NCBI RefSeq assembly: GCF_024267655.1 | Contig: NZ_CP100595.1 | Location: 2,728,001 to 2,792,000, forward strand | Length of the DNA stretch: 64,000 bases | Reading direction: 5' to 3' | Origin: Arcobacter roscoffensis | GTDB lineage: Bacteria > Campylobacterota > Campylobacteria > Campylobacterales > Arcobacteraceae | Shown: positions 9,840 through 14,939 of the stretch, one piece after another | How positions within the stretch are numbered: position 1 is the stretch's first letter | How the letters are laid out: each line of letters starts with the position of its first letter | Program-made: the position numbers and the translations under genes | Notes under the pieces: model-generated | The model's input: only the letters and a program-made list of their open reading frames with translations | Told to the model about the DNA's origin: nothing | Database searches by the model: none

Positions 9840-11018
9840 ATGGCTTACAAACCACAATTTAAAGTAAAAGCAACATATATGAGAGGTGGTACTTCAAAAG
9901 GTACTTTCTTTAATATTGCAGACCTTCCAAAAGAAGCTCAAGAAGATGGAAGAAAAAGAGACAAACTATTACAAAGAATTGTAGGTTCTCCTGATATTTA
10001 TAAAAAACAAATGGATGGAATGGGTGGAGCTTCTTCATCTACTTCAAAAGCTATCTTAGTTGGGAAATCTGATGTTCCAAATCATGATGTAGATTACTAC
10101 TTCTGTCAAGTTGCTATTGACAAAGATTTTGTTGATATGAGTGGAAACTGTGGTAACTTAAGTTCAGCAGTTGGTCCTTTTGCTATTAAAGAAGGTTTAG
10201 TTGATAATGTACCCCAAAATGGTGTATGTTGTGTAAGAATTTGGCAAGCAAATATCAAAAAAACTATTCTTTGTTATGTAACAATGGAAGATGGAATGGT
10301 TAAAGAAATGGGTGACTATGAAATTGATGGTGTTGCTTTCCCTGCTGAAGAGATTGTACTAGAGTTTGTTGAGCCAGTTGACCCAAGTGAAGAGTTATTC
10401 CCTACTGGAAACTTAGTAGATGACTTAGAAGTTGAAGGTATTGGTACACTTAAAGCTACTATGATTACAGCAGGAATTCCAACAGTATTTGTAAATGCTG
10501 ATGAAATCGGATATAAAGGAACTGAGCTTCAAGGTGATATTAATTCTGATACAGCAGCTTTAGAAAAGTTTGAAAAAATCAGAATTGCAGGTGCTTTAAA
10601 AATGGGTGTTATGAAAGATGCAAGTGATGCATTAACTCAACAACACACTCCAAAAATTGCATTTGTATCTCCTGCTCAAGACTTTATTACATCTTCTGGT
10701 AAAGAAGTAAAAGCAAGTGAGATGGACTTACATGTAAGAGCCTTATCTATGCAACAATTACACCATGCTATGATGGGAACAGCTTCTGTTGCTATTGGTG
10801 TTGCAGGTTCTATTCCAGGAACTTTAGTTAATTTAGCTGCTGGTGGTGGAGAAAAAGATACTGTAACATTTGGTCATCCAAGTGGTGCTATTAAAGTTGG
10901 TGCTACAATTACTAAAGATGGTGATAAACTTACAGTTCAAAAAGCTTCTATGAGTAGAAGTGCTAGAATTATTATGGATGGAAATGTTCACGTTCCAGCT
11001 GGAACTATGGACGTATAA
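9840..11018 (+). CDS. prpF: 2-methylaconitate isomerase PrpF
   Basis: Isomerises the AcnD product to the 2-methylaconitate form hydrated onward to 2-methylisocitrate; it is needed only with AcnD-type cycles. The 392-residue protein has the PrpF start ATYMRGGTSKGTFF and GGASSSTSKAI, and a diaminopimelate-epimerase-like fold is known for the family. MSGNCGNLSSAVGPFAI carries the conserved Cys. AAGGAG lies 9 bases before the ATG. A strong bidirectional terminator follows, closing the operon. Confidence 0.95.
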   Translation: MAYKPQFKVKATYMRGGTSKGTFFNIADLPKEAQEDGRKRDKLLQRIVGSPDIYKKQMDGMGGASSSTSKAILVGKSDVPNHDVDYYFCQVAIDKDFVDMSGNCGNLSSAVGPFAIKEGLVDNVPQNGVCCVRIWQANIKKTILCYVTMEDGMVKEMGDYEIDGVAFPAEEIVLEFVEPVDPSEELFPTGNLVDDLEVEGIGTLKATMITAGIPTVFVNADEIGYKGTELQGDINSDTAALEKFEKIRIAGALKMGVMKDASDALTQQHTPKIAFVSPAQDFITSSGKEVKASEMDLHVRALSMQQLHHAMMGTASVAIGVAGSIPGTLVNLAAGGGEKDTVTFGHPSGAIKVGATITKDGDKLTVQKASMSRSARIIMDGNVHVPAGTMDV

Positions 11019-11093: not shown

Positions 11094-13226
11094 TTAATCA
11101 CATAAAAGTGGTATTTGTATTTTAAACTCTTCACCTTTATATTTATTTCCTTCATATTCATACTCTACGGTTTTATTTGATAAACTACCATTAAAATGTT
11201 TTTTAATGATTTCATTTGACATATAAAGACCAAGTCCTGTACCTTGACTTTGATGTTTTGTAGTAAAATATGGTTCATATATTTTCTCAGAGATTTCACT
11301 AGGTATACCCCCTGCATTATCAGTAACTATTAATACTAGATTATCATCAACTACAGATGATTTTATAATTATAAATTTATTTGTGTCTCTTAATGACATT
11401 TTAGATATCAAAGCATCTTTTGCATTGTTAATAATATTTATAACAACCTGCATGAGTTCAAATTTGAAACCCAAAACTTTTATACTTTTTAAATCTAAAA
11501 CCAACTGTATATTACTAGATTTATATGAAGACTCAAATATAACCAAATTCTCTTTTATAAGTTCATCTATATAAAACTCTTCTACTTCATTATTTGGATT
11601 GAAAAAGTTTCTAAATTTATCTATTATTGATGATAAATAATTGATATTATTTAAAAGCTTTTCTAAATTTACTTGTGCTTTTTCTTTGTTTAATTTATCT
11701 AATTGTATTTGCATACTCATAGAAGAAGATATTACACTCATGATTGTTAGAGGCTGTCTCCATTGGTGAGCAATATTTCCAATCATTTCACCCATAGAGG
11801 CTAATTTTGATTGTTGATATAACATTCTTTCTTTTTCTTGATTTTGTTTTTCTAATAAAACTAAATCATTTATATCTGTATGAAAACCAATAAACCTACT
11901 TGCCTTATCATCTGAATCATAAAATAGTTTTCCTCTAATTTTTATCCATTTATATGTATTGTTTTTACATTTAAATCTATACTCTGTTTCAAATAAATCA
12001 GACTTTTGATTTATATGTTCTTTTAGTTCACTTAGTGTCTTTTTATAATCTTTTTTATGAATACTTCTTTGCCAAAAACTATTATAAGCTATGTCATCAT
12101 CTAAATCATAATCTAACATAGTTTTAAAGCGTGGAGAATAAAATACTTTTTTATTTTTTAAATCCACATCCCATAAACCATCTTGAACTCCATCAATTGC
12201 CCTAGAATATTGCTCTTTTACATCCCTTAGTTCAGAAATAATGTCGTTTAATTCATACGCAAAACTATCAAACTCTAAAACATTTGTATTTTTATACTCT
12301 ATATCTTTTTGGTCTTTAACTTTATTTGCATAATCAACAAGTTGGCTAAAAGGTTTGATAATAAATTTATTAGATAGATAATATAAAAGAATAAAACAAA
12401 AAATAACAAAAAATACTAATAAAAAAGCTTGTTGGATAAAATTGTCTTTTAGAACTTCAAAAGTACTATTTTTCTTTTCATATATAATTTCTAATTTATC
12501 AGTATCATATATCTCATAAGGAATACTAGAATATATTTTATCTTGCTTTACAAATATATCTTTTTTTGTAAACTTACTTAAATCAATGTTTTTTTGATTA
12601 TTCGTAGAAGCAATTAATCCTTTATCAAAATATACATATATATCAAGAAGTTTTGCTCTTGTTTTTATATTCTCTAAAAAACTAAAGTTATCATTTAAAA
12701 CTTTTGCCCCATAAACTTTAGCTTTAACTCTCCCTGTTAATTCATCAATAATACTATCTTTACTTATCATTAGAATAATATCTTTATTTTCAATCTTTAC
12801 TCTAATAATTCTATTGTTTATTGATGAGTCCATTTGTTTGATTTTTTCAATTATTAACTTTGAGTCAAATAAAGATGTACTATAATCATAAAATATTCCA
12901 TCCATCTTGAAAAAAAGTAAATCTACTGTGTCCACATAAGATAAGGTTTCAAGTTTATATATAACCTCATCTTGATTTTCTAAATGGGAAATACTTTTAA
13001 ACTCATTCGTTACACTTGAAACTATCTCTTGTAAATTTTTTTGTTCATTTTCAATAATTAACTTTGTGATATTATAGGTTTGATTAAAGTAATCACTAAT
13101 ATTTTTATCCACTACTTTTTGTGTATTCATATAACTTGAAAAAAGTACAGCAGTAGTTAATATAATAAAAAATAGTAATAGTAATAAACTATTAATTATA
13201 GATAAGGAAAGCTTTTTATTTTGCAT
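11094..13226 (-). CDS. Sensor histidine kinase with LuxQ-like periplasmic domain
   Basis: Membrane histidine kinase, probably partner of the LuxP-like protein whose gene it overlaps. Numbered from a possible TTG start at 13259, the parts are: TM helix about 19-42, periplasmic domain 43-275, TM helix 278-296, linker, PAS domain about 350-465, HisKA with His498 in GNIAHQWRQPL, and an ATPase domain with INNAKDAL, DNAGGIP and GTGLGLYMS. The periplasmic segment TGRVKAKVYGAKVLNDNF resembles the equivalent part of Vibrio LuxQ. There is no receiver or Hpt domain, unlike hybrid LuxQ. I chose ATG 13226, which overlaps the luxP-like gene by 11 bases. No response regulator gene is adjacent. Confidence 0.85.
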   Translation of the reverse strand: MQNKKLSLSIINSLLLLLFFIILTTAVLFSSYMNTQKVVDKNISDYFNQTYNITKLIIENEQKNLQEIVSSVTNEFKSISHLENQDEVIYKLETLSYVDTVDLLFFKMDGIFYDYSTSLFDSKLIIEKIKQMDSSINNRIIRVKIENKDIILMISKDSIIDELTGRVKAKVYGAKVLNDNFSFLENIKTRAKLLDIYVYFDKGLIASTNNQKNIDLSKFTKKDIFVKQDKIYSSIPYEIYDTDKLEIIYEKKNSTFEVLKDNFIQQAFLLVFFVIFCFILLYYLSNKFIIKPFSQLVDYANKVKDQKDIEYKNTNVLEFDSFAYELNDIISELRDVKEQYSRAIDGVQDGLWDVDLKNKKVFYSPRFKTMLDYDLDDDIAYNSFWQRSIHKKDYKKTLSELKEHINQKSDLFETEYRFKCKNNTYKWIKIRGKLFYDSDDKASRFIGFHTDINDLVLLEKQNQEKERMLYQQSKLASMGEMIGNIAHQWRQPLTIMSVISSSMSMQIQLDKLNKEKAQVNLEKLLNNINYLSSIIDKFRNFFNPNNEVEEFYIDELIKENLVIFESSYKSSNIQLVLDLKSIKVLGFKFELMQVVINIINNAKDALISKMSLRDTNKFIIIKSSVVDDNLVLIVTDNAGGIPSEISEKIYEPYFTTKHQSQGTGLGLYMSNEIIKKHFNGSLSNKTVEYEYEGNKYKGEEFKIQIPLLCD

Positions 13227-14316
13227 TATCTTGTGTATACCTAAAAGCTCTTTGTTCAAGCTCTTCTAATTTCTCTTTTGCAATTCCCTTTTCTACAAGG
13301 GCAAAATCTCCTGAAAAAATTGTAGGTACTTTTTGCTTGTCACCTTCTAAATCAAGTTTTATTGCCTCTGCCATTGCTACGCCATTATCATCATTCATTC
13401 TCATAACTGTAATGTCCATATATCCATCTTGAATAGCTTGAAGTTCACTACTTCCTCCACCCCATCCATTTACTAATATTTTTCCTACTAAATCTTTTTG
13501 TTTAAGTGCTTCTATTACACCTAATGCAATATCAGTAGAACACGCATATATAAACTTAATATCATCATCTTGTTTTAGCAAATCAAGTGTTGCAAGTTTA
13601 GCTTTTTCTTTACTTGTATTTGTAAAGTATTCATGAACTACTTTTAAATCTGAGTTCTTAGAAACATAATCAATAAACTTTGTTCCTCTCATATAACTTA
13701 CATAACCATTTGCTGTATATAAAACAGCATACTTACCAACACCTTTTGTCTTTTTGATATAATAATCAGCTAGCATTTGACTGCCTATCATATGATCAAA
13801 ACCTACATATAAAAAAGGTTGACTTTTCTGCCATTTTCTAAGGGGTGTTGTTATGTTTTGTAAAATTAGTTTTGGTTTTTCACGACTTATAATTCGCTCA
13901 ATAAATTTAGCATGTTTACTTGCATCTAATACAAATACTAAATAATCAGTATTATCTTTTATAGCCTTTAAGAGTAGTTTAGATTGAACCCTAGTTTCCA
14001 CATGAGGTTTAGTAAAGTGAAGAACTAATTCATAATCTATACCTAATTCATCAAGTCTTTTTTCAAAAGAGACTTTACTTTTCATCCAATAATCAGTTAA
14101 TTGTTTACCCGGATATACTAAAACTATCTTTACTTTTTTATTTTGTTGTTTTATTTTGAGGGCATCTTTTTGTATTTGTTTTATAAAGTCTGTTGTTATT
14201 TGTTCTTGATTAGTGAACTTAATATACTCATCTATGTCAAAGTATTTTGAATTTTCTGCATTTAGAAAACTGATAGTGCACATCAAAAGAATCAATTTGA
14301 TAATGGATTTTTTCAT
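13216..14316 (-). CDS. luxP: LuxP-like autoinducer-2 binding periplasmic protein
   Basis: Periplasmic binding protein of type 1 (ribose-binding) fold with a signal peptide ending near Ala20. Long stretches match Vibrio LuxP: VYPGKQLTDYW, LILQNITTPLRKW, QPFLYVGFDH, IYACSTDIALG, NGWGGGS, DITVMRMNDD and SGDFALVEK. Residues aligning with the recalled LuxP ligand contacts are Gln72, Thr74 (Ser in LuxP), Trp77, Asn154, Arg210, Trp285 and Arg306. An ordinary sugar-binding protein would lack this set, and no ABC transporter genes adjoin. It overlaps the kinase gene, like luxP-luxQ in Vibrio. Its ligand is inferred, not shown. Confidence 0.88.
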   Translation of the reverse strand: MKKSIIKLILLMCTISFLNAENSKYFDIDEYIKFTNQEQITTDFIKQIQKDALKIKQQNKKVKIVLVYPGKQLTDYWMKSKVSFEKRLDELGIDYELVLHFTKPHVETRVQSKLLLKAIKDNTDYLVFVLDASKHAKFIERIISREKPKLILQNITTPLRKWQKSQPFLYVGFDHMIGSQMLADYYIKKTKGVGKYAVLYTANGYVSYMRGTKFIDYVSKNSDLKVVHEYFTNTSKEKAKLATLDLLKQDDDIKFIYACSTDIALGVIEALKQKDLVGKILVNGWGGGSSELQAIQDGYMDITVMRMNDDNGVAMAEAIKLDLEGDKQKVPTIFSGDFALVEKGIAKEKLEELEQRAFRYTQDNAK

Positions 14317-14396: not shown

Positions 14397-14939
14397 TTAC
14401 TTAACTAATTTAGATATTTCTTTAAATACTGGATTTTTAGCATTTAGTGTTAATTCAAATAAAATTGATTCATATGTAGTTGGAATAACACCTGCTTGAA
14501 TTAATCTTTGAATTGCTACATCAGTATCATTTTGTTTTCTTGAAGTTACACAATCAGTAACTAGTATTGGTTGAAGTCCCGCTTCTAATAAATCAATACA
14601 AGTTTGTAATACACATACATGTGTTTCAATTCCTGCAACAATTACATTTTTCTTTCCACTGTTTTTAATAGCTTCCATTGTTGGTTCATTTTTACAACAA
14701 GAAAATGTTGTTTTTTCAAAATGAGGATAATCAACTACTAACTCTTTTAAAGAAGGTATTGTCTCACCTATTCCTTTTTTGTACTGTTCATTTACTATAA
14801 AAGGAACTTCTAATACTTTTAAACCCTTAATTAAAGTAATTAATTTTTTTTTAATCTCTTCATTATTCGTTACGTGAGGAAATAGCTTTTCTTGTACATC
14901 TACTAAACAAAATAGTGTATCTTCTACATTTATTCTCAT
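14397..14939 (-). CDS. Isochorismatase-family cysteine hydrolase
   Basis: A 180-residue cytosolic amidohydrolase of the isochorismatase/nicotinamidase superfamily. The catalytic triad is visible as Asp14 (LVDVQEKL), Lys76 (FEKTTFS) and Cys109 (GIETHVCVLQT), with the preceding cis-peptide motif. Similar small proteins are annotated YcaC-like or hydrolase of unknown substrate. It is monocistronic between the luxP-like gene and a PhnA-like gene, so context gives no substrate. Confidence 0.85.
   Translation of the reverse strand: MRINVEDTLFCLVDVQEKLFPHVTNNEEIKKKLITLIKGLKVLEVPFIVNEQYKKGIGETIPSLKELVVDYPHFEKTTFSCCKNEPTMEAIKNSGKKNVIVAGIETHVCVLQTCIDLLEAGLQPILVTDCVTSRKQNDTDVAIQRLIQAGVIPTTYESILFELTLNAKNPVFKEISKLVK

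Follow-up and report, generated by a model that had tools for sequence, protein, structure and literature searches.

LuxP, the binding protein of the Vibrio autoinducer-2 (AI-2) receptor, was reported in 2004 to occur only in Vibrio (PMC524169), and one 2025 paper still calls it exclusive to that genus (PMC12503165). Surveys give a wider picture: the 2008 survey finds LuxP homologues in Oceanospirillales and in two delta-proteobacteria, some from organisms that lack luxS and some next to regulators containing PAS domains (PMC2561040), and a survey from 2025 counts 267 LuxP proteins, mainly from Proteobacteria, and reports AI-2 binding for three LuxP proteins from Proteobacteria and Deferribacterota (PMC12268683). 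A search of titles and abstracts yielded no report of LuxP in Arcobacter. LuxP outside Vibrio is thus already known, and what is new in the locus described here is its occurrence in another phylum and its different output half.

In Campylobacterota, luxS is common and a receptor to match it has been lacking. For Campylobacter jejuni, a 2026 paper describes the AI-2 receptor as unidentified (PMC13049666). Here, we analyze a 64,000-nucleotide stretch ("the window") of the Arcobacter roscoffensis genome, a single contig of 3.15 Mb, in which a luxP-type gene is followed by a luxQ-type kinase gene. We propose, with a probability of roughly 0.78, that the two genes encode a LuxP/LuxQ-type AI-2 receptor whose ordinary kinase passes phosphate directly to a separate response regulator. 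The features on which this reading draws are the following:

13216..14316, minus strand: luxP-type periplasmic binding protein, 366 aa, from sequence search, alignment and predicted fold
Within the luxP-type protein: signal-peptide-like N-terminal segment MKKSIIKLILLMCTISFLNA, judged by eye
13216..13226, minus strand: 11-nt overlap of the luxP stop and the luxQ start, from start-codon inspection
11094..13226, minus strand: luxQ-type membrane sensor histidine kinase, 710 aa from the ATG at 13226, without a receiver domain
13125..13217, minus strand: transmembrane segment 1, about residues 4-34, from hydropathy
12468..13091, minus strand: LuxQ-type periplasmic sensor domain, residues 46-253, from PF09308, profile comparison and predicted fold
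12357..12446, minus strand: transmembrane segment 2, about residues 261-290, from hydropathy
11880..12146, minus strand: cytoplasmic PAS domain (PAS_3), residues 361-449
11604..11795, minus strand: HisKA domain with H-box HQWRQPL (His487)
11106..11459, minus strand: HATPase_c domain with N and G boxes NIINNAKDAL, DNAGGI and GTGLGL
14397..14939, minus strand: isochorismatase-like gene (by eye), upstream neighbor and one border of the interval in which luxPQ is present or absent
9840..11018, plus strand: prpF-like gene (by eye), convergent neighbor and other border of that interval

A LuxP-type protein and its LuxQ-type partner

A preliminary description, made from the DNA letters alone, had placed a LuxP-like protein at 13216-14316 and an overlapping frame reaching 11094, both on the minus strand; the list of open reading frames agrees, and every LuxP-shared segment named there is found in the translation. 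When solved structures are searched with the protein, LuxP chains rank first (phmmer E 1.7e-96) and account for all four top PDB matches, with the next family following at E 2.2e-13, and identity to Vibrio harveyi LuxP is 46% over the full length (335 residues aligned). The AlphaFold2 model (pLDDT 89) matches five LuxP entries with Z scores of 43-46 and rmsd values of 2.0-2.5, and the best sugar-binding protein reaches Z 30.5 against 45.8 for the best LuxP. Judged from homology and predicted fold, the product of 13216-14316 is orthologous to LuxP.

The kinase gene overlaps luxP on its downstream side in the luxP-luxQ order, as had been described, though the TTG listed as its start at 13259 gives way to an ATG at 13226, which we consider the more likely start. 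The overlap is then 11 nt, and overlaps of 1-14 nt recur at the homologous loci of close relatives (L002, L003, L004 and L005), so that translational coupling of the two genes would fit. The kinase scores 35.8 bits against PF09308 (LuxQ-periplasm; curated cut-off 25.7), and a genome search turned up no other protein with this domain. Comparison of a profile of 10 Arcobacteraceae sequences with one of four Vibrio LuxQ sequences aligns 265 columns (E 2.6e-11), and the best structural matches of the predicted sensor domain (pLDDT 85) are the five LuxQ entries, at Z 15.5-16.5 and rmsd 2.6-2.7, followed by a chemoreceptor ligand-binding domain (Z 12.1, rmsd 5.9). Pfam finds no Response_reg match, the protein stopping after HATPase_c, and the NCBIfam LuxQ_Vibrio equivalog cut-off is missed (91.6 vs 1200 bits).

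The putative ligand pocket

The residues put forward as ligand contacts in the preliminary description, Q72, T74, W77, N154, R210, W285 and R306, are all present and align to Q77, S79, W82, N159, R215, W289 and R310 of V. harveyi LuxP. With S265 and T266 there are nine contact positions, those other than N159, R215 and R310 being taken from the 1JX6 structure. Eight of the nine are identical in the window (Q77, W82, N159, R215, S265, T266, W289 and R310 in LuxP numbering), and the ninth, S79, is Thr. N159, R215 and R310 are hydrogen-bonding residues for AI-2 (PMC6452917), R215 and R310 have been tied to binding of S-THMF-borate (PMC3794749), and in docking work the pocket is lined by these residues and also by position 134 (PMC9920117).

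That Ser79 is replaced by Thr74 had been noted correctly; that it is the only change does not hold, as position 134, absent from the earlier list, is Val in the window and Thr in 84 of the 88 rows of a LuxP-family alignment. Thr at position 79 also occurs in five of the 87 other rows, and the two changes occur together (window codons 74 and 129) only in the window and in L083 and L002, its nearest relatives, perhaps as paired changes in the pocket. No variation is seen across the 88 rows at W82, N159, F178, H180, R215, T266, W289 or R310, and 85 of the rows have Q77. By contrast, Q77, N159, W289 and R310 are missing from two RbsB-like paralogues of related genomes that were included for comparison, whose pocket positions read TGWSRFHRSDSIH and TGWSRFRRSDSIP against QTWVNFHRSTDWR in the window. 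The window's pocket residues match LuxP and differ from those of the RbsB-like paralogues.

This comparison bears on whether the protein is instead an ordinary ribose/allose-type sugar-binding protein serving a transporter or a sugar-sensing kinase. Such a protein would share the Peripla_BP_4 fold that Pfam assigns here, and NCBIfam does give distant matches to allose and ribose binding proteins, yet these lie far under their cut-offs (39.2 vs 335 and 32.4 vs 337 bits), the E-value for LuxP is better by over 80 orders of magnitude, and the partner carries a LuxQ sensor domain. With a pocket unlike that of the paralogues and no transporter gene recognized alongside, we rejected a role as a sugar transporter component, and we regard a sugar-binding protein of any ordinary kind as very improbable. 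Identification as LuxP does not by itself prove AI-2 as the ligand, since Vibrio LuxP has been crystallized with 1-deoxy-alpha-L-xylulofuranose-1,2-borate and with a formose-derived analogue (entry titles 4YR7 and 4YP9).

The NCBIfam model of LsrB has no match to the luxP-type protein. Two other Peripla_BP_4 proteins of the genome were considered as LsrB candidates and rejected, one scoring 28 vs 384 bits against the NCBIfam model and the other giving no match. Elsewhere in this genome (L155, 114-2379), an MCP-like chemoreceptor gene, named by eye, is directly followed by the gene of another Peripla_BP_4 protein, and the two possibly form a binding-protein/chemoreceptor pair.

One locus, present or absent between species

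In six genera the genes follow the order dnaX - dsb - hemC - isochorismatase-like - luxP - luxQ - prpF - acnD, with all names besides luxP and luxQ assigned by eye and with small insertions in some copies. One Arcobacteraceae genome, 74% complete, has luxP at this locus with no adjacent luxQ (L108, 7715-8818). In seven genomes examined, four of them from the genus of the closest relative, the interval is empty, without luxPQ or detectable remnants. The luxPQ pair sits at one fixed locus and is present or absent between species. LuxP homologues are found in 19 of 104 Arcobacteraceae genomes, representing eight of 20 genera, and in eight of 397 sampled Campylobacterota genomes, two of the eight belonging to other families.

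In a LuxP phylogeny, one of the checks suggested in the preliminary description, the window falls in a clade with 11 further rows from Arcobacteraceae (support 99), and separate clades are formed by a second Campylobacterota group (95), by Desulfobacterota (97), by an alphaproteobacterial group (97) and by Vibrio (100); the deep branching order among these clades is not resolved by the tree, and two of the loci, L005 and L109, encode identical proteins. A patchy distribution such as that in Arcobacteraceae might point to a pair recently acquired from Vibrio, and so perhaps not wired into its host. The Arcobacteraceae and Vibrio clades are nonetheless apart, the neighbors are the same in six genera, and an empty counterpart of the locus exists in other genomes. 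Because of this combination of tree and synteny, we rejected a recent gift from Vibrio, which we hold to be the least probable of the readings considered.

LuxP homologues and their partners in other phyla

The preliminary description treated LuxP as largely a Vibrionales trait. This view does not stand, and the claimed rarity of LuxP was overstated: among the matches listed, several phyla have homologues that share this pocket, and the 2025 survey reports AI-2 binding by LuxP proteins from outside Vibrio (PMC12268683). The spread seen here is a lower bound, coming from a pattern search built on the window's LuxP-type protein and comprising up to 80 loci. Among 57 candidate partners of LuxP homologues (50 adjacent, seven nearest), PF09308 is present in 49, and the domains of these candidates include histidine-kinase in 31, GGDEF in 15, EAL in 13 and receiver domains in nine. 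Genomes with LuxP contain luxS in 34 of 56 cases. Nearly all of those from Campylobacterota and Gammaproteobacteria have it, as do two of seven from Desulfobacterota (one a partial match) and none of the 10 alphaproteobacterial genomes searched; since several of the assemblies are drafts or metagenome-derived, single absences carry little weight. The absence from Alphaproteobacteria agrees with their use of the SahH pathway (PMC524169).

At five alphaproteobacterial loci (L016, L022, L051, L053 and L057, all in genomes without luxS) and three gammaproteobacterial ones (L030, L045 and L049), the luxP gene is directly followed by one whose product, about 900-1020 aa long, has GGDEF and EAL motifs, an arrangement that suggests AI-2-type sensing wired straight to c-di-GMP. 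The LuxP partners in Sulfurospirillum sp. Kmv13 (L077, 6008-7861) and in a Campylobacterota metagenome-assembled genome (L063, 6047-7987) have a GGDEF-like motif and no kinase motif. In Motilimonas, two luxP copies lie on one contig (L015/L061, L019/L036 and L035/L044), neither followed by a large same-strand gene. In Vibrio fluvialis, plasmid pIDH5335-3 (83 kb, mobilizable by typing) carries a luxPQ pair (L121, 4001-7687). In luxP-bearing Marinobacterium, Neptuniibacter and Pontibacterium, luxS is present (genomes G083, G088, G089 and G090; loci L030, L045, L048 and L049), whereas the 2008 survey gives no luxS in Oceanospirillales (PMC2561040).

The same pocket in luxS-negative bacteria implies that they either eavesdrop on AI-2 or bind a related borate-diol. 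The second option extends to the window: the LuxP/LuxQ module would be real, and its natural ligand another furanose- or pentulose-borate, or a related diol, instead of AI-2. The sugar-borates found in Vibrio LuxP crystals, the many luxS-negative genomes with the same pocket (all 10 from Alphaproteobacteria and most from Desulfobacterota) and the S79T and T134V changes of the window's clade lend this some weight. Against it, every known LuxP-AI-2 contact except S79 is kept, luxS is near-universal in Arcobacteraceae (102 of 104 genomes), and LuxP proteins of distant phyla bind AI-2 (PMC12268683). We consider a ligand other than AI-2 unlikely, and prefer AI-2 itself for the window's pair.

More broadly, we think the odds lean slightly toward LuxP and the LuxQ periplasmic domain being an old, portable module for borate-AI-2 that is untied to LuxU and LuxO and has been placed on plain or hybrid kinases or on GGDEF/EAL c-di-GMP enzymes in Campylobacterota, Desulfobacterota, Alphaproteobacteria and Gammaproteobacteria. 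Carriers without luxS would then hear a signal that they do not make themselves.

Output of the pair and a proposed mechanism

A full-genome search, another check suggested at the outset, found luxS in the window's genome (E 9.8e-57). Hpt matches in this genome occur solely inside open frames of 556-1407 aa, and so no stand-alone LuxU was found. The best PF00158 match in the genome reaches 36.8 bits, which we read as background from other AAA+ ATPases; these matches are probably not activators, and a LuxO is unlikely. No response regulator was seen beside the pair in the window or at L106, L109 and L111. With no stand-alone LuxU or convincing LuxO found, and with no receiver domain on the kinase, the pair probably signals in a simple two-component step, its regulator being encoded away from the locus. 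Since a plain sensor kinase serves as the membrane partner and no relay proteins of the Vibrio kind were found, the same AI-2 "ear" seems to be wired to an internal circuit other than that of Vibrio.

We propose the following model. The exported LuxP would hold a furanosyl borate diester in its interlobe cleft; the most likely ligand is borated AI-2 (S-THMF-borate), sensed in the periplasm. LuxP would sit on the membrane kinase, with which it would be co-translated, at the tandem-PAS domain on the periplasmic side, and ligand binding would alter this complex and shift the balance of autokinase and phosphatase activities at His487, in one direction or the other. Phosphate would then pass directly to a separate response regulator, bypassing a fused receiver domain, LuxU and LuxO. 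Since the genome encodes LuxS, the cell can probably hear itself as well as other luxS-bearing bacteria.

Comparison with known systems

Sequence, predicted fold, the residues of the pocket, the order of the genes and the luxS of the same genome speak for a LuxP/LuxQ-type pair, a proposal that is well supported within the reach of sequence and structure prediction. Counting against an AI-2 receptor are the two substitutions in the pocket, the other sugar-borates crystallized with Vibrio LuxP and the locus L108, where luxP stands without luxQ. With a complete candidate pair in Arcobacteraceae that have luxS, AI-2 signaling becomes testable in this phylum, and the presence or absence of luxPQ at one locus among related species offers natural comparison pairs. 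The pair does not supply a receptor for C. jejuni, as LuxP was found in so few of the sampled Campylobacterota genomes. The absence of a receiver domain, of LuxU and of LuxO suggests a sensor that can serve outside the circuit known from Vibrio.

The non-Vibrio LuxP proteins of earlier surveys resemble the window's in lying outside Vibrio, and some of them bind AI-2; the accessible portions of these surveys name no Campylobacterota LuxP and do not describe the conserved locus and kinase architecture found here (PMC12268683, PMC2561040). Another membrane histidine kinase, AsrK of V. furnissii, responds to AI-2 through its periplasmic domain, as we propose for the window's kinase (PMC11796354). 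Yet the dCache AI-2 receptors, CahR-type proteins and AsrK, bind non-borated AI-2 directly, whereas the window's pair combines a LuxQ-like sensor domain with a separate binding protein.

The closest relatives remain those of Vibrio. With LuxP of V. harveyi/V. campbellii (1JX6, 2HJ9), the window's protein shares homology over the full length, fold and eight of nine contact positions, and it differs in its phylum and in the S79T and T134V changes of the pocket. With Vibrio LuxQ (1ZHH_B, 2HJE, 3C30), the kinase shares the luxP-luxQ gene order, two membrane segments, a tandem-PAS periplasmic domain, and HisKA and HATPase_c domains, but it has 710 aa and no receiver domain, while Vibrio LuxQ is a hybrid kinase of 855-860 aa with a C-terminal receiver domain. 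Compared with the Vibrio LuxPQ-LuxU-LuxO relay as a whole, the window's genome shares luxS and differs in having no stand-alone Hpt protein of the LuxU kind and no convincing LuxO, so that the likeness to Vibrio lies in the sensor and the difference in the output.
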